From Chloroflexota bacterium (GTDB taxonomy: Bacteria; Chloroflexota; Anaerolineae; Anaerolineales; UBA4823): a DNA stretch of 14,011 nucleotides. Of the stretch, positions 1 to 13,477 are shown piece by piece. The notes below the pieces were generated by a model, which saw only the letters and a program-made list of their open reading frames with translations, ran no database searches and had not been told where the DNA came from. Positions within the stretch are counted from its first letter, which is position 1, and every line of letters starts with the position of its first letter. The DNA lies in NCBI GenBank assembly GCA_030636125.1, contig DAOVXM010000015.1, positions 1-14,011 of the forward strand, in the 5' to 3' direction. A program made the translations under genes and the position numbers.

Positions 1-1188
1 ACCAAAGAAATAATCTACATTATTATTTGAGTAGATCCGCGTAATATTTCGTCCGCTGACTTTGGCATCGTATAGAGCCACATCTGCGTTGTGGATGAGA
101 TCACTGGAAGATTGTCCATCACCCTCCCTAGCAGCCAATCCAAAGCTTATGGTGATATTAATTGGAGTGACACTGGTTGAAACATCGAAGGAAGCCGCCT
201 CAATCTCTTCTCGCACTTCTTCAATCTTATGGTAAGCCTCCTCGAGGGTGGTCTCAGGCATCAATATAGCAAACTCTTCCCCGCCAAACCGAGCAACAAT
301 ATCATATCCCTGAAATGATTCCTGCAATATATCGGCAACCCCACACAATACGGCATCACCTGCCAGGTGACCATAGGTGTTGTTGATATGTCTGAGTAAA
401 TCCAGATCTCCTAAAACGAATGCCAACGGACGGTCAAACCGCTTGGCACGCTCTAATTCTTTTTTGAATGCTTTAGTAAGATAGCGAGAATCATACAACC
501 TGGTTTTTGGGTCAACTTCCGCTTGTCGTTTCAAGGCAGGAATCTTAAAGGTTATGTAGATTAGATAGAGGGGAATGATGCTAAAAATGGCTGCAGATGG
601 ACTGATCATCCAAATAAAAGCCGCGGCTGCTCCCAGGCTGATCAATGTGTAATCGATCATCAAGCCGAACAAAGTAAAGGAGCCGGAATTTCCCACCCGT
701 TGTCCGCTAGTGACCCAGTTAAGACCGCCAGTCAAAATGCGATTTACGAGGGTAAAGACAGCGATTGCCCCCAATACTCCCAGCGTGCCCAGGAGTGTTA
801 TTGATTGATTCTGAGGATTGATCCAATCATAGACAAATTTCGCAGCAAAGATCGCCAAAGCATAGGCAGCTATGTTGAATATTGGGATATACCAGGAATT
901 CCGTCGCCACGCCCACTCAACTAAGTTGGCGACGAGTATCGTGAACAGGGCAGCTGGAGCACCTAGCAATACAAGTGTGAACCCATAGATCATCCAGCCA
1001 ATATTGTGATTGGATTTACCTGCAACGTTTTCAACTTTAAATAACTGGGTGATCGCAGCTAAAAATACTGGGACTAGAATCCACCAGCTCCACCATTGGT
1101 TTTCTACCAGGATCCAAATCGTTAATGCAACACCTGATAAAATCACAGGAATAATATATAGCTTTACTTTATCCGGCAATTCTTTCAT
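1..1188 (-). CDS. Membrane-anchored diguanylate cyclase (GGDEF), 3' end cut by window edge
   Basis: Predicted to make cyclic di-GMP from two GTP at the inner face of the membrane. The 396 visible codons read open to the left edge, so the C-terminus is missing. Residues 1-218 carry about seven or eight hydrophobic segments (for example 11-28, 33-48, 64-89, 101-119, 130-151, 172-195, 198-214) and no recognisable extracellular sensor domain. The GGDEF domain starts near residue 225, with DLD at 261-263, NN at 269-270, GHLAGD at 273-278 and the active-site GGEEF at 302-306. It ends near the ALYDAK..GRN segment. The inhibitory I-site, normally RxxD just before the signature, reads QGYD (293-296), so product inhibition at that site is probably lost. 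ATG 1188 is chosen because it lies beyond the riboswitch and terminator; a weak GGA precedes it. In-frame upstream TTG codons are possible starts. The family is certain; the signal sensed is unknown. Confidence 0.93.
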   Translation of the reverse strand, partial: MKELPDKVKLYIIPVILSGVALTIWILVENQWWSWWILVPVFLAAITQLFKVENVAGKSNHNIGWMIYGFTLVLLGAPAALFTILVANLVEWAWRRNSWYIPIFNIAAYALAIFAAKFVYDWINPQNQSITLLGTLGVLGAIAVFTLVNRILTGGLNWVTSGQRVGNSGSFTLFGLMIDYTLISLGAAAAFIWMISPSAAIFSIIPLYLIYITFKIPALKRQAEVDPKTRLYDSRYLTKAFKKELERAKRFDRPLAFVLGDLDLLRHINNTYGHLAGDAVLCGVADILQESFQGYDIVARFGGEEFAILMPETTLEEAYHKIEEVREEIEAASFDVSTSVTPINITISFGLAAREGDGQSSSDLIHNADVALYDAKVSGRNITRIYSNNNVDYFFG

Positions 1189-1233: not shown

Positions 1234-1268
1234 AACCAACAAACCCTCAGGTTTCGGCTGCCTGAGGG
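1234..1268 (-). terminator. Riboswitch expression platform: terminator hairpin before the cyclase
   Basis: On the minus strand CCCTCAGG (1268-1261) and CCTGAGGG (1251-1244) form a perfect 8-bp stem with a 9-nt loop, followed by TTTGTTGGTT. The U-tract is imperfect, so termination efficiency is uncertain. The hairpin lies between the second aptamer and the cyclase ATG. Its 5' arm plus loop (1267-1256) is complementary to the 3' closing strand of that aptamer (1302-1292). The pairing covers 11 bp with one bulged C, giving a plausible antiterminator. Ligand binding would hold that strand in the aptamer and let the terminator form. Confidence 0.72.
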
Positions 1269-1294
1269 CAAAAGATTTAACTCATTATTAGCCT

Positions 1295-1437
1295 AGGCAG
1301 CCCGGCGGTCTTATGTAGTGATCTATTTTCGACCACCAACCACGTAGACCCGTAGCTTTGCGCTCCTGCCTTTCGGTAGATCGGGTACTTCTCCGACCTA
1401 AACGGAGAATTCACTCATTCTCCACTCAGGTTTGCCT
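1295..1437 (-). promoter_or_regulatory. c-di-GMP-I (GEMM) riboswitch aptamer 2, gene-proximal, with enlarged P1b region
   Basis: The minus strand shows the c-di-GMP-I core in order: GGCAAACC (1436-1429), GCGCAAAGC (1363-1355) followed by a CGGGTCTA segment, and GCCGGGCTGCC near 1308-1298. AGGCA (1437-1433) pairs with TGCCT (1299-1295) to close the domain. The last helix is visible as GTGGTC/GATCAC. The stretch between GGCAAACC and GCGCAAAGC is about 65 nt, against about 17 nt in aptamer 1. It contains a long stem from ACCTGAGTGGAGAAT with ATTCTCCGTTTAGGT (15 pairs, three of them G-U), and a second segment ending in a GAAA loop. Assignment to the class rests on the conserved core and the tandem partner. 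Ligand binding by this enlarged version is inferred. Confidence 0.8.
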
Positions 1438-1455
1438 TTTCTGTGCGGGTAGCTG

Positions 1456-1550
1456 AGGCAGCTAGGCTGTCGTATGCTAAACAATCGCTCTTTGATTGCA
1501 AGGCACTTAGATCCTTGGCTTTGCGCCCCGGACTTTCATCCGGTTTGCCT
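1456..1550 (-). promoter_or_regulatory. c-di-GMP-I (GEMM) riboswitch aptamer 1, promoter-proximal, canonical
   Basis: A 95-nt domain on the minus strand with all hallmarks of the c-di-GMP-I class. AGGCA (1550-1546) pairs with TGCCT (1460-1456). GGCAAACC is at 1549-1542. The P1b stem CCGGAT/GTCCGG is capped by the GAAA tetraloop that docks in the known structure. GCGCAAAGC lies at 1526-1518, followed by an AAGGATCTAAG segment. A CAATC/GATTG stem follows, then CAGCCTAGCTGCC at the 3' side. It is separated from aptamer 2 by only about 18 nt. Tandem c-di-GMP aptamers are known to give steeper or two-input responses. No confident promoter hexamers were seen upstream. Confidence 0.88.
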
Positions 1551-1690
1551 TTTCTTTGCTTAGGAATTCCCCAAGTTAAGGTATTCTCATCTTACACAAG
1601 TAAGTGCTCTATTGATGATCATTGTCCCATAAACGGTGGGTGAATTTCGCCGAGCAGCCACTGCCAACCAACTTTCCGATGCTAATTCGT
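1551..1690 (-). other. Leader/promoter-bearing spacer between transposase relic and riboswitch
   Basis: This 140-bp stretch must hold the start of the riboswitch transcript. I could not assign a convincing -35/-10 pair; TTACTTGTGTAA near 1591-1602 is a short inverted repeat. There is no continuation of the transposase reading frame. The segment around 1611-1650 could be an old insertion-sequence end. I looked for a matching inverted copy on the far side of the transposase and did not find one. Confidence 0.4.
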
Positions 1691-2335
1691 TTATATATAA
1701 GATCCCAGATAACTAACAACTTCCGTTGTTTCATATTCATCCAGAGTGCCAGTCCCTAAAACCGAAACATCAATGTCAATGCCCTCGATTAGGGATTCCA
1801 TCCAGGATTTAACCCCTCTGGGATCATATTCATCTAAAGTCCCAAGAACTACTTCCCTGCCATCCTTAGCGCTCAAGGCAACCACGACACCTAGCTTAGT
1901 GCTGACCCTGTGTACGTAATTCCTATCAATTGAATAGCGCTTGCCGTTAAGTGATTCGCTGCGATCATCCTGCCTTTCCGATAATCTTTTCCCCTCTCTC
2001 CAGACACTTGTCCGGCTAACTTTAAGCCCAACATTCCTGAATGCATCAACCACATCTCTAGTGCTCATGCCCATCACCCAGGCCAGCCCAGCGATTTGAC
2101 GGATACGAAGCGTCTGGTTTGACCGGTCAACACCTTCGGGATAGTGGCGGAATGTACGTTCGCACTCGCTGCAGCGATAGCGATAGATCTCTGTTAGCAA
2201 ACCAGTTGCATCTCGAACGGGTTTATGCACCCTTCCCCAACGCTGCAGGATATCACTCCCGCAATAAGAGCAATCGTGTGGGCGACTATCTGTTGGTTTT
2301 TGAATTTCTGGTAGCTTCAACCAAATGACCGGCAT
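1691..2335 (-). pseudogene. Truncated transposase relic (zinc ribbon + helix-turn-helix, catalytic part lost)
   Basis: 214 codons with an N-terminal zinc ribbon, CSYC (residues 22-25) paired with CSEC (55-58). A basic helix-turn-helix-like region follows around residues 75-115 (IAGLAWVMGMSTRDVVDAF). The beginning of a DDE-type nuclease fold follows (KLGVVVALSAKDGREVVLGTLDEY). In related proteins a segment like VLVTDDLDEY should come next with a catalytic Asp. Here it reads VLGTGTLDEY and the protein ends about 20 residues later, roughly half the length expected for such transposases. It therefore looks inactive by both substitution and truncation. ATG 2335 has AGGAG about 10 nt upstream. The insertion-sequence family was not identified with confidence, and no terminal repeats were found. 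Confidence 0.7.
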
Positions 2336-6454: not shown

Positions 6455-7570
6455 ATGTCCCGTAAAACATTTTTATTACTAACCTCATTAATAGTCATGG
6501 CTTTGCTCATTGCAGCCTGTGGCACCAGTGAGACAATTGTAGAAACAGTGATCGTGACGGTAGAGGTGCCAGCAGAGGCTGAAGAGGCACCCGCCCAAAT
6601 TGTATCCGTTGGCCGTGGAGATATTTATAACCGGGTGAAAGAACGCGGCAAATTAGTATGCGGTAGCCGTACAGACCTGCTTGGCTTCGGTTATCTCGAC
6701 GCCGACGGACGCAACATCGGCTTCGATATCGACCTGTGCCGTGCTGTAGCAGCCGCAGTGCTCGGCGATCCTGAAGCTGTAGAATTCGTCCCCTTGACAG
6801 CGGCCGAGCGAGGCCCTGCGTTGCAAACGGGTGAGATCGACATGCTCAGCCGGAATGTTACCTGGACGTCCACCCGTGATTCCCAATGGGGTAACTACAC
6901 CACTGTGATGTTCTACGATGGTCAGGGCTACATTGTCCGCAAGGATAGTGGGATCACCGATGTTAGCCAGATGGATGGTGCTACCGTCTGCGTGACGACC
7001 GGTACGACCACCGAGTTGAATTTAGCTGATGACTTCCGCCAACAGGGTTTATCCTTCGAAGCGGTTACCTTTGAGGACACCCCCTCAGTATACAACGCTT
7101 ATGATGAAGGGCGTTGCGACGCGGCCACCAGTGACAAGTCACAACTGGCGGCTATCCGTATGGGTTTAGCTGATCCCGATGCGCACGTCATTCTCGACGT
7201 CACCATCTCCAAAGAACCCCTCACTCCTGCCGTACCTCACGGCGACGACCAATGGTTCGATATTGTAAAAATGGTCATGTATGGGCTGATCAACGCTGAA
7301 GAACTGGGCGTTACCCAGAGCAATGTTGACGAAATGGCCAGCGGTGACAATATAAAGGTGCGCCGCTTGTTGGGGGCTGAAGGCGAATGGGGTCAGGCGG
7401 ACCTTGGGTTAGATGCAGATGCTATGGCCGTTGCACTAAAGGCCGTCGGCAACTATGGTGAAATCTATGATCGCTATATGGGTCCCCAGGGAGATGCATT
7501 TGTTCTGCCTCGCGGAATAAACCAACTCTGGAACGATGGCGGTTTGATCTACGCACCACCAATGAAATAA
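6455..7570 (+). CDS. aapJ: General L-amino-acid ABC transporter, substrate-binding lipoprotein
   Basis: 371 residues. A lipoprotein signal peptide ends in LIAAC with lipidated C22. A Val/Thr/Glu-rich linker (about 23-50, ETVIVTVEVPAEAEEAP) is typical of Chloroflexota lipoproteins. From about residue 58 it is a family-3 solute-binding protein of the AapJ/BztA type, with VKERGKLVCGSRTDLLGFGY, GFDIDLCRAVAAAVLGD, LQTGEIDMLSRNVTWTSTRD, YDGQGYIVRK and GRCDAATSDKSQLAA. It captures polar and acidic amino acids outside the membrane and delivers them to AapQM. AAGGAGAG lies just before the ATG at a suitable distance. In this presumed Gram-type-atypical lineage the protein is tethered rather than free in the periplasm. 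It is first in the four-gene operon; the exact substrate range is inferred from the family. Confidence 0.94.
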   Translation: MSRKTFLLLTSLIVMALLIAACGTSETIVETVIVTVEVPAEAEEAPAQIVSVGRGDIYNRVKERGKLVCGSRTDLLGFGYLDADGRNIGFDIDLCRAVAAAVLGDPEAVEFVPLTAAERGPALQTGEIDMLSRNVTWTSTRDSQWGNYTTVMFYDGQGYIVRKDSGITDVSQMDGATVCVTTGTTTELNLADDFRQQGLSFEAVTFEDTPSVYNAYDEGRCDAATSDKSQLAAIRMGLADPDAHVILDVTISKEPLTPAVPHGDDQWFDIVKMVMYGLINAEELGVTQSNVDEMASGDNIKVRRLLGAEGEWGQADLGLDADAMAVALKAVGNYGEIYDRYMGPQGDAFVLPRGINQLWNDGGLIYAPPMK

Positions 7571-7588
7571 ACAAGCCATCTACTTACA

Positions 7589-7621
7589 GGGTGCAGTCTT
7601 GTGAAAGACTGCACCCTTATT
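7589..7621 (+). terminator. Hairpin between aapJ and aapQ (partial terminator)
   Basis: GGGTGCAGTCTT (7589-7600) and AAGACTGCACCC (7605-7616) form a perfect 12-bp stem with a GTGA loop, followed by TTATTG. Hairpins after binding-protein genes in ABC operons are known to protect the upstream mRNA and let only part of transcription continue. That would give more AapJ than permease. Confidence 0.75.
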
Positions 7622-7630
7622 GAAATATCT

Positions 7631-8830
7631 ATGGCTGCAAACCAGGCTCCTCCTTCAAAAATCCAAATAAGTAGCGATATACCTTTCTGGCGGGACGAAC
7701 GCGTCCTGAGGGTTATAGCACAGATCGTTTCATCAGTACTGGTCATTGGTTTTATTATTTTCCTTGTGATCAATTTTTTTGAGGCTGCCGAACAGCGTGG
7801 GCTATCACTAGGGTATGACTTTCTTAAAGAAGCGGCTGGTTTTCCGATCAGCGAATCGCTGATTCCTTATGATCCAGCAAAATCATTCGCTTATGCATTC
7901 CTAATTGGTATTCTCAATACATTAAAGGTCTCCCTAATCGGCATCGTCGCTGCGACCATCCTGGGTACGCTGGTTGGTCTGGCACGTCTCTCATCAAACT
8001 GGCTTGTCAGCCGGATCGCATTAATCTTTATTGAATTTCACCGCAATATCCCCCTGCTGATTTATCTCTTCTTATGGTTTTTTGTCGTCGGGCAGAGACT
8101 ACCTCCGGTCAAAGACAGCATCCAGGTGCCAGGGCTCATATTCCTCAACCAACGCGGCTTGTATTTGGCCTGGCCGCGCCTGACTTCAACTGGATATATA
8201 TTCCTAATTTTCGTTATTCTGGGCATCGGATTGTCGATCATCGCTTTTGTCGTCCTGCGCCGTTTGCGTGAGACAACCGGACAATCGACCTACTTTGGTG
8301 CTGTCAGCCTTGGTTTCCTGATCGTGTTTCCCATCATCGGTTGGTTCATCGCCGGGGGTGAACCCCTCATGATCGATGTCCCATTTCTAGACGGCTTTAA
8401 TTTCAAGGGGGGATTGCGCCTCACGCCGGAATTTGCCGCCTTATTTGTGGGTTTGGTCTTATACACTGCTGCCTATATTGCTGAGGTGGTGCGCGCCGGC
8501 ATTCAGGCGGTCAGCAAAGGACAGGTGGAGGCAGCTTCGGCCGTTGGTCTCAGCAGTTTCCAAGTTCTCGGATTGATCATCATCCCACAAGCCATGCGAG
8601 TAATCATCCCACCACTCATCAGCCAATACCTAAACCTGACCAAGAACTCCAGCTTAGCCATCGCTATCGGCTACCTGGACGTCTTCTTTGTGGGCCGGAC
8701 CATCATCAACCAGGCTGGACGCGCTGTCCCGGTATTCTCGATGATCATGGTCACCTACCTGACCATCAGTATTATCACTTCCCTCATTATGAATTTTTAT
8801 AACCGTCGCATTCAGTTTAAAGAAAGGTAA
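7631..8830 (+). CDS. aapQ: General L-amino-acid ABC transporter, permease AapQ
   Basis: 399 residues from ATG 7631. An in-frame GTG at 7601 was rejected because it lies in the loop of the intercistronic hairpin. No clear Shine-Dalgarno precedes the ATG. About eight hydrophobic segments are present. An N-terminal segment and a long insertion separate the two halves, as usual for AapQ/BztB, which are longer (about 400 residues) than ordinary amino-acid permeases. LNTLKVSLIGIVAATILGTLVGLARL marks the start of the permease domain. The ATPase-contacting EAA loop is VEAASAVGLSSFQVLGLIIIPQA. It pairs with AapM to form the channel. Confidence 0.93.
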   Translation: MAANQAPPSKIQISSDIPFWRDERVLRVIAQIVSSVLVIGFIIFLVINFFEAAEQRGLSLGYDFLKEAAGFPISESLIPYDPAKSFAYAFLIGILNTLKVSLIGIVAATILGTLVGLARLSSNWLVSRIALIFIEFHRNIPLLIYLFLWFFVVGQRLPPVKDSIQVPGLIFLNQRGLYLAWPRLTSTGYIFLIFVILGIGLSIIAFVVLRRLRETTGQSTYFGAVSLGFLIVFPIIGWFIAGGEPLMIDVPFLDGFNFKGGLRLTPEFAALFVGLVLYTAAYIAEVVRAGIQAVSKGQVEAASAVGLSSFQVLGLIIIPQAMRVIIPPLISQYLNLTKNSSLAIAIGYLDVFFVGRTIINQAGRAVPVFSMIMVTYLTISIITSLIMNFYNRRIQFKER

Positions 8831-8885
8831 TAGTGAGCAATCCGCTAAGTGATGCTCAACAACTCTTAAAGCGAGTTTTGAATCT

Positions 8886-10091
8886 ATGACATCCAAAGCA
8901 GAAGAAATACGCCCTCCGGAACCACCAGGTCTTTTGACCTGGATGCGCCACAATTTGTTCAGTTCCTGGTTCAACGCCTTGCTGACAATCATCTCCGTGG
9001 CATTCATCTTTTTTGCTGTACGAGGCATCGTTAACTGGGTGTTCTTCACGGCTGACTGGACACCTGTTTTAGAGTTCCCACTCTTATATATGATAGGTCA
9101 GTATCCCAGGGACCAAATGTGGCGCATCGCTATATTGCTCTGGACGACCACTTTCCTCTTCGGAGTAAGTTGGGGCTTATGGGGCGACCTGGTGCGCCCT
9201 TTCGCCATCACTATAGGTGTCCTCCTGGCTCTGGCTGCCTTTTTCCCCACTTCGTCAGAATCGTATACGCTTGCAGTTCGCGTAGCACTGATTATTAATC
9301 CGATCTTGATTTTTGTCGGTTACCAGGTTGGGCGGTTAAAGAATATTACAGGTAGACTTGTAGTGATCGCCTGGCTCGTCCTTTTTATCATAACTCCTAT
9401 CTTGCTGCGTGGGTTTAACGAAAGCGAAACGCTACCCATTGTAGAAACCACGCTATGGGGTGGCCTGGTCGTGACCATCCTGCTCGCAGCAGGTGGTATC
9501 ATCCTGTCATTTCCAATTGGGGTTGCTCTAGCCTTGGGCAGGCGTTCTTCGTTGCCGGTAGTGAAAATATTCTCGACCTTATTCATCGAGGTAGTACGAG
9601 GGGTGCCCCTCGTGACCATCCTTTTTATGTTTTCCATCATCTTAGCCCTCTTCCTGCCCCCCGAATCACGCCTCGACCGTTTGATGCGTGCTTTGATGGC
9701 GATGACCGTTTTCAGCGCAGCTTATATGGCTGAAAATGTACGCGGTGGCTTACAGGCGGTTCCACCCGGCCAGGAAGAAGCTGGGAAAGCGGTTGGATTG
9801 AACAACCTTAAGATTATGACTTTTATCGTTTTGCCCCAAGCCCTGCGCTTGGTCATCCCCGCTATTGTTGGTCAATTTATCAGCCTGTTTAAAGACACCA
9901 CGCTGGCCATTATCGTCGGCATCAGCGAACTTCTATTTATTGGTAAATCAATCATCAACTCTGACCCCACATTTATCCAAAGACAGCTCGAGGTGTTTTT
10001 ATTCATCGCGTTCTTATTCTGGATTATCAGTTATGCCATGTCATCTGCCAGCCGGCAGCTAGAGTCGCAGCTCGGCGTTGGCGAACGCTAA
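8886..10091 (+). CDS. aapM: General L-amino-acid ABC transporter, permease AapM
   Basis: 401 residues with several membrane segments in the first 190, then the core permease domain (from [20 protein letters not shown], about 188). The EAA loop reads [41 protein letters not shown] and [16 protein letters not shown] are typical of AapM/BztC. It lies 55 nt after aapQ and 14 nt before aapP, in the same order as the characterised aapJQMP and bztABCD operons. No strong ribosome-binding site is visible; [15 protein letters not shown] is a plausible cytoplasmic start. Confidence 0.93.
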
Positions 10092-10105
10092 ACAAGGAGC
10101 GCTTT

Positions 10106-10867
10106 ATGAGTGAACCAACAAACGAAACCAGTTCGGATGAACCGATCATCATTTGCCGGGACGTGCACAAGTGGTTCGGCAACTTCCATGCCTTAAAAGG
10201 CATCGATATGGATGTCAATCCAACAGAGGTGATCGTCATATTCGGTCCCTCCGGCTCGGGTAAATCCACCTTCATCCGCACCCTCAATCGCCTTGAAGAA
10301 CACCAACAGGGACAGATCATCGTGGATGGTATCGAGTTGAGCCACGATGTGCGCAATATAGAGAAGATACGCATGGAAACCGGGATGGTCTTCCAGCAGT
10401 TTAACTTATTCCCGCATCTCAGTGTCATGCAAAATATCACCCTTGCCCCCATCTGGGTGAGGAAATGGAAAAAACAAAAAGCCGAAGAGGTATGCATGGA
10501 ATTGCTGGAAAGGGTTGGCATTCCAGAACAGGCAGAGAAATACCCTGCCCAACTCTCCGGTGGCCAGCAGCAACGCGTGGCGATCGCGCGCGCTTTAGCC
10601 ATGCAGCCCAAGATCATGCTATTCGATGAGCCCACATCGGCGCTCGACCCGGAGATGATCAAGGAGGTGCTGGATGTAATGGTTGAATTGGCTCAGAGTG
10701 GTATGACCATGCTGGTAGTCACTCACGAGATGGGTTTCGCCAAAGGCGTATCCGACCGGATGTACTTCTTCGATGAAGGAAAAATTGTTGAAAGTGGCAC
10801 ACCCCATGATATTTTCCAAAATCCTCAAGAGGACCGTACCAAACTATTTCTATCTCAAATCCTCTAA
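10106..10867 (+). CDS. aapP: General L-amino-acid ABC transporter, ATPase AapP
   Basis: 253 residues, the full length of polar-amino-acid ABC ATPases. Walker A is GPSGSGKST (47-55), Q-loop Q97 ([11 protein letters not shown]), signature LSGGQQQR (150-157), Walker B IMLFDEP (170-176), D-loop SALD, and switch His H207 (VVTHEM). It powers import through AapQM. AAGGAG lies 7 nt before the ATG. Confidence 0.96.
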
Positions 10868-11556: not shown

Positions 11557-13008
11557 TTACCCTTTAATCACGGCAACCGGCACCAACCTGGCCACTCTAC
11601 GAGCAATCCCGGCCCCAACAACAGTGCTAACCACTTCGTCAACATCCTTATAAGCCTGAGGGGCTTCTTCGGCTAAACCGGCCATCGACCCAGCGCGTAT
11701 TTGGATGCCTCTGGACTGCAATTCCTTACGCAAATCCTCTCCCCATACCGTTTTCTTTGCCTTACTGCGGCTCATCACACGACCAGCCCCATGACAGGAG
11801 GAACCAAATGAGCGCTCCATGCTGCCTTCTGTTCCAACCAAAACCCAGGAAGCTGTACCCATACTGCCCGGTACTAAAACTGGCTGACCAATAGGCCGAT
11901 ATTCTTCTGGTAAGCCCTCAAAACCTGGTCCAAAAGCGCGTGTTGCACCCTTGCGATGGACACAAACTTTAATCCTTTCACCGTTTATTTTATGCGTCTC
12001 GATTTTACCCATGTTGTGAGCAATATCATAAACCTGATACAAACCCCAATTTTTCACCTTGCCAGCCAGGGTTTCCTCAAAAGCTTTACGTGCATAGTGG
12101 GCCAGCACTTGACGGTTGGCGAAGGCATAGTTTGCCGCGCAACGCATTGCTGCAAGGTAATCCTGACCTTCTGGGGAATCCAATGGAGCGCAAACCAGCT
12201 CGCGGTCTGGTAGTGTAATTCCATAGCGACGCACTGCCCCTTGGAGCTCTCGAACATAATCTGTGCATATCTGGTGACCAAACCCCCGCGAGCCGCAATG
12301 AATTTGAACCACCAAATTACCTTCTGCCAATCCCATAACCTGGGCCGCACGGGCATCAAAGACCTGGTCAACCAGGTCTACTTCGATAAAGTGATTCCCC
12401 GCTCCCAGAGTGCCGACTTGAGAGCGACCGCGCTCCTTAGCTCGTTTGCTTACTTTGTCAGGGTCAGCACCATCAAGTCGCCCGTTCTCTTCGGTTCGAC
12501 GCACATCTGCCTCGGAAGCATATCCCCGTTTCTTTGCCCATTGACTACCTTGAATACAGACTTGATCCAGCTCTGTCACACTCATACGCAAATGACCCTT
12601 TTTCCCGACCCCACTCGGACAGTAGTGATTTAGAGCGGATGCCAAATCGTCAATATATGCCTGCGCTTCCCCGAGCTCAATTTGAGAAGCCAACAGACGT
12701 ACACCACAATTAATATCATAGCCAATGCCGCCGGGTGATATCACCCCTGTCGGGTATCGCGTTGCTGCCACACCACCAATAGGAAAACCATAACCTTGAT
12801 GCATATCAGGCATCACCAGGACATGTCCAACTAATCCAGGAAGGGTTGCTGAGTTTACCGCCTGTTCGAGAGATCTATCTTTCATGACAGCCTCTAGCAA
12901 ACGTTTAGTCGCGAAAATACGCACTGGCACCTGCATGTCGTCGCGATAGGTTTTCGGTATCTCCCACTCATAATCGTTAATTTTTTTTAGTTCTTGTAGG
13001 CTGATCAT
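11557..13008 (-). CDS. rtcB: RtcB, 3'-phosphate/5'-OH RNA ligase
   Basis: 483 residues, full length and without an intein. RtcB joins a 2',3'-cyclic phosphate or 3'-phosphate end to a 5'-OH using GTP and Mn2+, in tRNA splicing or RNA repair. Visible metal ligands are D98 and C101 (GYDINCGVR), H206 (GAGNHFIEV), H237 ([12 protein letters not shown]) and H331 (DIAHN). The guanylylated His is H351 in [25 protein letters not shown] (67-81) is also signature sequence. ATG 13008 is chosen because GAAGG lies 7 nt upstream; a GTG two codons earlier is less likely. The archease gene is 55 nt upstream on the same strand and should encode its activating partner. Confidence 0.96.
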
Positions 13009-13063
13009 GCACACACCTTCTACAAATCCGAGTGAAAGCCCAACATCAATACTCTACAGTCAC

Positions 13064-13477
13064 TCATACATCGAAGACAATATTCACTTCAAATCCCCGC
13101 TTAGTTTCTCTGATTTTCAAGTTATGATAAGTCACCGCCTTGATTTCCTTCTCCTGGGAGGCAAGAGGCGCGCCTCCCAATTTAGCCAACAATTTCCCGT
13201 CAGTGAGCTTAAGGTCAAATTTATCAAACCCTAGGCTTTCCATCTCTCCCAGGTATAGTAATTCTTCCAAAAAAGTGACTAATGTGCTCTCTGGATCATA
13301 AGCTGATACTTCCAACTCACGTGTCAGGTATGGATCTGTCTGCAGGCGGGTGCCTGATATTGAATACCTACCGCGCGCCGCTCCCGCTAACAGTGTGACC
13401 AAATAAGGAGCCCAGACTTCAAGTTCCCACTCTGCGGTATGTTCGAGCTCACAGTAACCAGAGATTCGATCTTCCAT
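13064..13477 (-). CDS. Archease, RtcB-activating protein
   Basis: 137 residues, the usual archease length. Archease speeds RtcB guanylylation and allows multiple turnover. Family signatures are the N-terminal ELEHTAEWELEVWAP (10-24), YDPESTLVTFLEELLYLGE in the middle, and EIKAVTYHNLKI plus the final FEVNIVFDV with the conserved near-terminal Asp. The usual HTAD metal-site motif reads HTAE, a conservative Asp-to-Glu change that may still bind metal. The ATG has only a weak AAG upstream. A TATAAT on this strand at 13504-13499 may be its -10, giving a very short leader. Confidence 0.92.
   Translation of the reverse strand: MEDRISGYCELEHTAEWELEVWAPYLVTLLAGAARGRYSISGTRLQTDPYLTRELEVSAYDPESTLVTFLEELLYLGEMESLGFDKFDLKLTDGKLLAKLGGAPLASQEKEIKAVTYHNLKIRETKRGFEVNIVFDV

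Follow-up and report, generated by a model that had tools for sequence, protein, structure and literature searches.

A stretch of Chloroflexota DNA of 14,011 nt (the window) carries two c-di-GMP-I aptamers in the leader of a diguanylate cyclase gene. This arrangement raises the question of whether the two aptamers each command a switch of their own or act jointly on one, and whether the product of the enzyme would turn its own gene down or up.

Layout of the leader and its cyclase gene

The whole window was searched with cmscan against Rfam 15. Two matches to the c-di-GMP-I clan, both on the minus strand in the leader, were listed above cut-off; a third, lower match belongs to the same clan and was unlisted. 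The sequence-only reading had placed two GEMM aptamers on the same strand directly ahead of a GGEEF gene, and the covariance search of the minus strand bears this out, as the scores of aptamer 1 (RF03167) and aptamer 2 (RF01051) both exceed the curated cut-off for the RF01051 clan and the next gene is a GGDEF gene (Table 1). The curated cut-offs are 35 for RF01051 and 59 for RF03167, the latter leaving aptamer 1 a thin margin for that model. Chance matches are excluded because of the E-values.

Aptamer 1 has a P1b capped by GAAA, an extended P3 and the canonical core GCAAAG. The P1b with a GNRA tetraloop is thus present in aptamer 1, and aptamer 2 keeps CC-GAAA-GG with a 50-nt insertion added. 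In the cmscan alignments, the pocket letters G, A and C are canonical in both aptamers. We take them to be G20, A47 and C92 of Vc2, of which G20 alone is backed by the parts of the literature consulted.

By their cmscan coordinates, 6 nt separate the two matches, not about 18 nt as had been claimed, while the linkers of six relatives measure 10-13 nt. Because 6 nt is too short, there is no terminator between aptamers 1 and 2. Aptamer 2 is followed at a distance of 104 nt by the cyclase ATG, and this interval contains a terminator-like hairpin with a folding energy of -15.3 kcal/mol (-17.9 kcal/mol for a longer stretch). Its U tract at 1243-1238 (UUUGUUGG) is weak, and a consensus terminator scan did not flag the hairpin. 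On the other hand, when the window and seven related leaders were aligned, the stem was paired in 72 of 72 cells, and a consensus fold found it too. Four of its nine pairs are changed on both sides, a number reached in 3 of 500 shuffles, and the paired percentage was reached in none of 500.

A platform after each aptamer was not found, since the hairpin lies solely downstream of aptamer 2. The 2025 survey, in the part consulted (PMC12452182), speaks of adjacent aptamers when they are <20 nt apart with one platform after the last, and the 6-nt linker and the hairpin at 1269-1243 agree with this description. With a 6-nt gap and a single hairpin after aptamer 2, the leader is therefore assigned to dual aptamers with one shared platform rather than to serial riboswitches. 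Judged from the sequence, it has both aptamers, no platform space between them, one conserved hairpin after aptamer 2 and the cyclase gene next. The insertion in P1b, the single terminator-like hairpin and the lack of an inter-aptamer platform had all gone unmentioned in the sequence-only reading.

Table 1 Features of the leader and the cyclase gene in window coordinates.
Feature	Position	Strand	Basis or remark
Aptamer 1 (transcribed first)	1453..1558	-	59.8 bits, E 2.9e-12, RF03167 c-di-GMP-I-GGC, same clan as RF01051
Inter-aptamer linker, 6 nt	1447..1452	-	cmscan coordinates
Aptamer 2	1293..1446	-	41.9 bits, E 1.8e-5, best model RF01051
50-nt insertion, two hairpins inside P1b of aptamer 2, between CCUG and CC-GAAA-GG	1377..1426	-	long loop in cmscan alignment
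A strand GGCUGCCU, P3 base and ligand-contacting C, putative antiterminator half	1295..1302	-	same in all 8 aligned leaders
T strand AGGCAGCC, terminator 5' arm and loop, putative antiterminator partner	1256..1263	-	8-bp complementarity
Terminator-like hairpin, sole platform seen for the doublet	1243..1269	-	folding; stem conserved in 8 leaders
Diguanylate cyclase gene, ATG at 1188, 3' end beyond the window	1..1188	-	open frame and domain profiles

The GGDEF domain of the cyclase scores 137.2 bits with PF00990 and 155.4 bits with TIGR00254, and its active-site motif, GGEEF, agrees with the diguanylate cyclase signature. The N-terminal part is hydrophobic, its membrane assignment being made by eye. 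The aspartate of GHLAGD is conserved in all 35 aligned sequences. At the I-site, the cyclase reads QGYD, while RxxD occurs in 25 of the 34 relatives aligned with it. Among the 120 homologues listed, all five rows with a named organism are Anaerolineales, and the best genome loci with cyclase relatives are Chloroflexota MAGs. The source of the leader is probably one of the Anaerolineales.

Incidentally, other genes of the window were also noted. Upstream of the leader, a transposase-like open frame (1691-2335, minus strand) ends 132 nt before aptamer 1 and has sub-threshold matches to IS256/IS1-type zinc-binding domain models. An amino-acid type ABC transporter cluster (6455-10867, plus strand) contains a family 3 solute-binding protein by Pfam, then two permease-like frames and one ATPase-like frame by eye. 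An RtcB ligase gene adjoins an archease gene at 11557-13477 on the minus strand, both by Pfam.

Proposed pairing of aptamer 2 with the terminator and probable sign of switching

By sequence, the A strand at the 3' side of aptamer 2 complements the T strand in the 5' arm and loop of the terminator. In the window, the A:T duplex has an energy of -22.1 kcal/mol, which was equalled or beaten by 2 of 500 shuffles. Over the eight aligned leaders, 57 of 62 cells are paired in this register, compared with 25-49% in slid registers. Covariation of the A:T pairing is absent in these leaders, as every shuffle gave the observed value; because GGGCUGCCU of the A strand is invariant across all eight, covariation lends the pairing no support. 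Compared with shuffled terminator arms, the duplex is of modest strength, with z from -1.1 to -3.2 and below -2 in four of the eight. The same kind of pairing was surveyed in 44 c-di-GMP-I leaders, one of them without a hairpin. The duplex of the aptamer 3' strand and the terminator arm fell below z -2 in 9 of the remaining 43, four of which are among the eight aligned leaders, and the pairing was thus rejected as a general feature of c-di-GMP-I leaders.

In the ligand-free ensemble of the window, about 7.1 A:T pairs are expected versus 3.1 terminator pairs. Minimum-energy folds, at -128.7, contain the antiterminator in one stretch of the leader and give an A:T count of 0 in a slightly different stretch; the ensemble figures are those used here. 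In six relatives, the terminator prevails in the ligand-free ensemble, and switching in them would then have to be kinetic.

Aptamer 1 also has a 3' strand with some complementarity to the terminator. In the window, this pairing amounts to -14.2 kcal/mol, an energy matched or beaten by 4 of 300 shuffles; for three relatives, the corresponding counts are 20, 8 and 12 of 300. It is weak in the other three of the seven doublets (74, 75 and 100 of 300), so that competition of both aptamer 3' strands for the terminator was rejected as a general rule.

We consider it fairly probable that the leader consists of two adjacent aptamers on one intrinsic terminator and works as an OFF switch, giving negative product feedback on the cyclase mRNA. 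The OFF sign is favoured because the 3' strand of aptamer 2 complements the 5' arm of the terminator, as in Cd1 (PMC9262584, in the part consulted). By this analogy, negative product feedback would be the likelier sign. The sequence-only reading had proposed product feedback, which with two aptamers ahead of a diguanylate cyclase gene looks probable; the sign of the circuit had not been given there.

The switch could operate as follows. At low c-di-GMP, GGCUGCCU of aptamer 2 would pair with AGGCAGCC of the terminator arm and loop, and the cyclase gene would be read through. At high c-di-GMP, the ligand would keep GGCUGCCU within aptamer 2, the terminator would form and cyclase synthesis would stop. 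Aptamer 1 probably sharpens or guards the decision, for which two routes can be conceived. First, it may assist the folding of aptamer 2. Second, the putative antiterminator strand of aptamer 1 (GCUGCCU, 1462-1456), which is the weaker of the two, may also have to be held. A steep response by the aptamer pair is possible.

The opposite sign would make the leader an ON switch with positive feedback, in which c-di-GMP blocks the terminator and raises cyclase synthesis in the manner of a latch. ON-type c-di-GMP-I riboswitches are known, for example the triple-tandem Bc3-5 (PMC4759541, in part), and the terminator dominates the ligand-free ensembles of the six relatives. However, in the ON switch pilM, as described in the consulted part of PMC9262584, the aptamer 3' strand belongs to the terminator, whereas that of the window is outside the hairpin. 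Moreover, the 3' strand of aptamer 2 pairs better with the 5' arm than with the 3' arm (-9.0 kcal/mol). We therefore hold the ON sign to be unlikely.

The OFF reading may also bear on the enzyme. In GacA, allosteric inhibition was relieved once the I-site had lost its arginine (PMC6456294, in part). As the I-site of the window's cyclase is without the arginine, feedback through RNA may substitute for feedback through protein. The shared-platform doublet and the loss of the I-site are not strictly linked, because doublet-bearing relatives with RxxD exist, such as locus L001 with RGSD. A bolder version of the OFF reading, in which the leader is a cooperative dual-aptamer, single-platform riboswitch for its own cyclase, an RNA thermostat replacing the lost I-site with the P1b insertion as an added module, is no better than tentative. 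In any case, the system offers a way to ask whether product feedback at the RNA level can replace I-site inhibition.

The P1b insertion and the ligand

The insertion in aptamer 2 suggests another course, in which it disables this aptamer and leaves aptamer 1 as the sole binder, or the switch stuck on. Aptamer 2 has the lower score of the two, and the 5' strand of its P1b can be captured by a local hairpin. With the insertion, the probability of the native P1b drops to 0.05 in the free ensemble computed for a 141-nt segment. Among the sequence searched, the insertion is limited to the window: no copy was found in the loci of relatives, and a DNA search of 38 genomes with the 375-base leader left it unmatched, while other parts of the leader were matched in 25 genomes. 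On the other hand, the insert can form two self-contained hairpins, and P3, the core and the complementarity to the terminator are all retained. A fold with the native P1b of aptamer 2, in which CCUG/CAGG and the GAAA-capped stem form, lies 0.8 kcal/mol above the optimum; the corresponding cost is zero for aptamer 1 and for eight aptamers from relatives. Disablement of aptamer 2 is thus given a minor share of our belief, about equal to that of the ON sign.

Recognition of another ligand, either c-GAMP or that of the c-di-GMP-I-GGC variant, was conceived because aptamer 1 scores higher with RF03167 than with RF01051. Both aptamers have canonical pocket letters, though, and the variant's own letter is missing. 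Replacement of GCAAAG by GCGAAG is, we assume, the defining change of the variant (RF03167). In the cmscan alignment, where the RF03167 consensus reads GCGAAG, aptamer 1 reads GCAAAG, and the six relatives with RF03167 as their best match all read GCAAAG as well. RF03167 was also observed to outscore RF01051 on canonical Chloroflexota aptamers. Because canonical aptamers receive that label, ligand specificity of the variant should not be read from the label alone; aptamer 1 was rejected as a GGC-variant riboswitch, the label being a product of clan competition. A literature search on A47G found no paper. The enzyme, for its part, has an aspartate and not the serine of Hypr enzymes (PMC6456294, in part), and another ligand is considered very improbable.

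Doublets in relatives and in known systems

The shared-platform reading was compared with c-di-GMP-I arrays in the 38 genomes of the family that includes G001 (the genome of locus L001), a family to which the window is not assigned. With up to 85 candidates scored per genome, so that weak matches may be missing, 132 RF01051 matches were found (one below cut-off) in 30 of the 38 genomes. They make up 106 arrays, of which 84 are single, 18 double and 4 triple. The gaps between aptamers cluster by length: six lie at -9 to -6 nt, six at 10-13 nt, one at 20 nt, nine at 79-92 nt and four at 110-177 nt. A terminator-like hairpin is present in 6 of the 12 gaps of >=60 nt that were examined, compared with 2 of 120 shuffles. 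In short-gap arrays, a hairpin occurs no more than 110 nt downstream of the last aptamer in 9 of the 10 examined, a count made without shuffle control. Because gaps below 20 nt cannot hold a terminator and half of the long gaps examined hold a terminator-like hairpin, the leader of the window represents a separate, shared-platform architecture.

Two complete, independent riboswitches in series with pseudo-cooperativity, as the phrase "two aptamers in series, double check" had implied and as a 2022 review lists tandem c-di-GMP-I (PMC9481103, in part), are hardly to be expected here, since a terminator cannot fit in 6 nt, the usual minimum being 20 nt in the consulted part of the 2025 survey (PMC12452182), and the single hairpin is downstream of both aptamers.

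In this family, the doublets with a 10-13 nt linker go together with cyclase genes. Of the six such arrays, five have a GGDEF gene downstream, and the contig of the sixth ends 1.6 kb downstream; none of 98 other arrays has one (0/5 other short-gap, 0/11 long-gap and 0/82 single). The window's GGDEF domain served as tblastn query (E 1e-4), and matches were sought on the same strand in a fetched stretch of up to 6 kb; 104 of the 106 arrays were examined, the two with <300 bases of sequence being dropped. Among the singles, at least 3 kb of downstream sequence was present for 51 of 58 in one batch and 10 of 24 in the other, as several contigs end early. Fisher's test on 78 family arrays gives 2.8e-7 for the association of doublet and GGDEF, with the five positives sharing descent; the five cyclase-linked doublets are not independent, because they stem from four related genomes. 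In four of the five loci, the leader and the cyclase gene are separated by an S8 subtilase-like gene, and the fifth, like the window, has no S8 gene ahead of the cyclase. The stretch from aptamer 2 to the terminator is 69% identical between the window and the leader of G002. Across genomes, first and second aptamers may or may not form separate lineages (mean identity 49.6 versus 46.7 of 67 positions, with the rows win_1 and G002b_2 miscounted for an absent middle piece and G002b_2 included in the means).

Two further kinds of array were observed. Abutting triple aptamers (L194 1688-1950, L195 1675-1938 and G006:C34) have Rfam matches that overlap by 6-9 nt, with no space for a platform; in two that were checked (L223 and L229), no downstream S8 or GGDEF match was found. 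In L190-L193, from four genomes, aptamers of 136-138 nt with a long P3 arm by eye precede similar lipoprotein-like frames of about 500 residues.

Beyond this family, 40 of 80 loci with cyclase relatives were scanned, consisting of the best ranks and further ones, mainly Chloroflexota, some with short upstream sequence. A c-di-GMP-I-clan aptamer lies upstream on the same strand in 12 of the 40 (4/20 and 8/20 in two batches). The cyclase is thus a recurrent riboswitch target in the phylum, mostly of single aptamers, as three of these 12 loci have doublets. The shared-platform doublet is the special case, encountered in the window and in a single branch. An S8 gene stands between aptamer and GGDEF domain in eight of the 12. 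The order of c-di-GMP-I riboswitch, S8 subtilase-like gene and diguanylate cyclase recurs in Chloroflexota (L001, L002, L022, L033, L051, L063, L073 and L187), and the S8 subtilase-like proteins of L001, L002 and L187 carry C-terminal repeats rich in tryptophan, for example NWNAV or NWGSV.

Both tandem c-di-GMP-I riboswitches and cyclase genes with a riboswitch ahead of them have been described before. In the parts consulted, the 2022 review (PMC9481103) counts 347 doublets and 12 triplets of c-di-GMP-I, the class with the most tandem arrangements in its dataset, and places them under multiple platforms as independent serial switches; dual aptamers with one platform are, as its Table 1 reads, those of glycine and guanidine-II. 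Likewise, the enrichment reported in the 2025 survey is of tandem riboswitches for c-di-GMP and of adjacent aptamers for glycine (PMC12452182, in part). GEMM ahead of diguanylate cyclase or phosphodiesterase genes was part of the GEMM discovery (PMC12564702, in part) and is shared by the window, the shared-platform doublet being unmentioned in the consulted part of that paper. None of the papers listed describes such a doublet in Chloroflexota in its title or in the opening of its abstract, and adjacent c-di-GMP cases may stand in the supplements of PMC12452182. The coupling of a shared-platform doublet to a cyclase operon looks new.

Compared with single systems, the window resembles known tandem c-di-GMP-I leaders (PMC9481103; Bc3-5, PMC4759541; both in part) in having at least two aptamers per leader. 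Bc3-5 of Bacillus thuringiensis, however, consists of three independent ON riboswitches (PMC4759541, in part), whereas the window has a shared platform, probably OFF, before a cyclase gene. In its strands, the leader is laid out like Cd1, an OFF switch of Clostridioides difficile, as far as the consulted part of PMC9262584 describes it: the antiterminator is made of the aptamer 3' strand and the terminator 5' strand, the 3' strand enters it with the ligand-pairing C, ligand leads to termination, and aptamer and terminator can coexist. In the window, the antiterminator would be built alike, and aptamer and terminator could likewise coexist. Cd1 has one aptamer, but the window has two, the second with the P1b insertion. 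The adjacent-aptamer glycine riboswitch, although of a different RNA class, has two like aptamers and one platform as the window does, and the doublet before cyclase operons, being present at the level of a family, provides a compact natural test of glycine-like cooperation among c-di-GMP-I aptamers.
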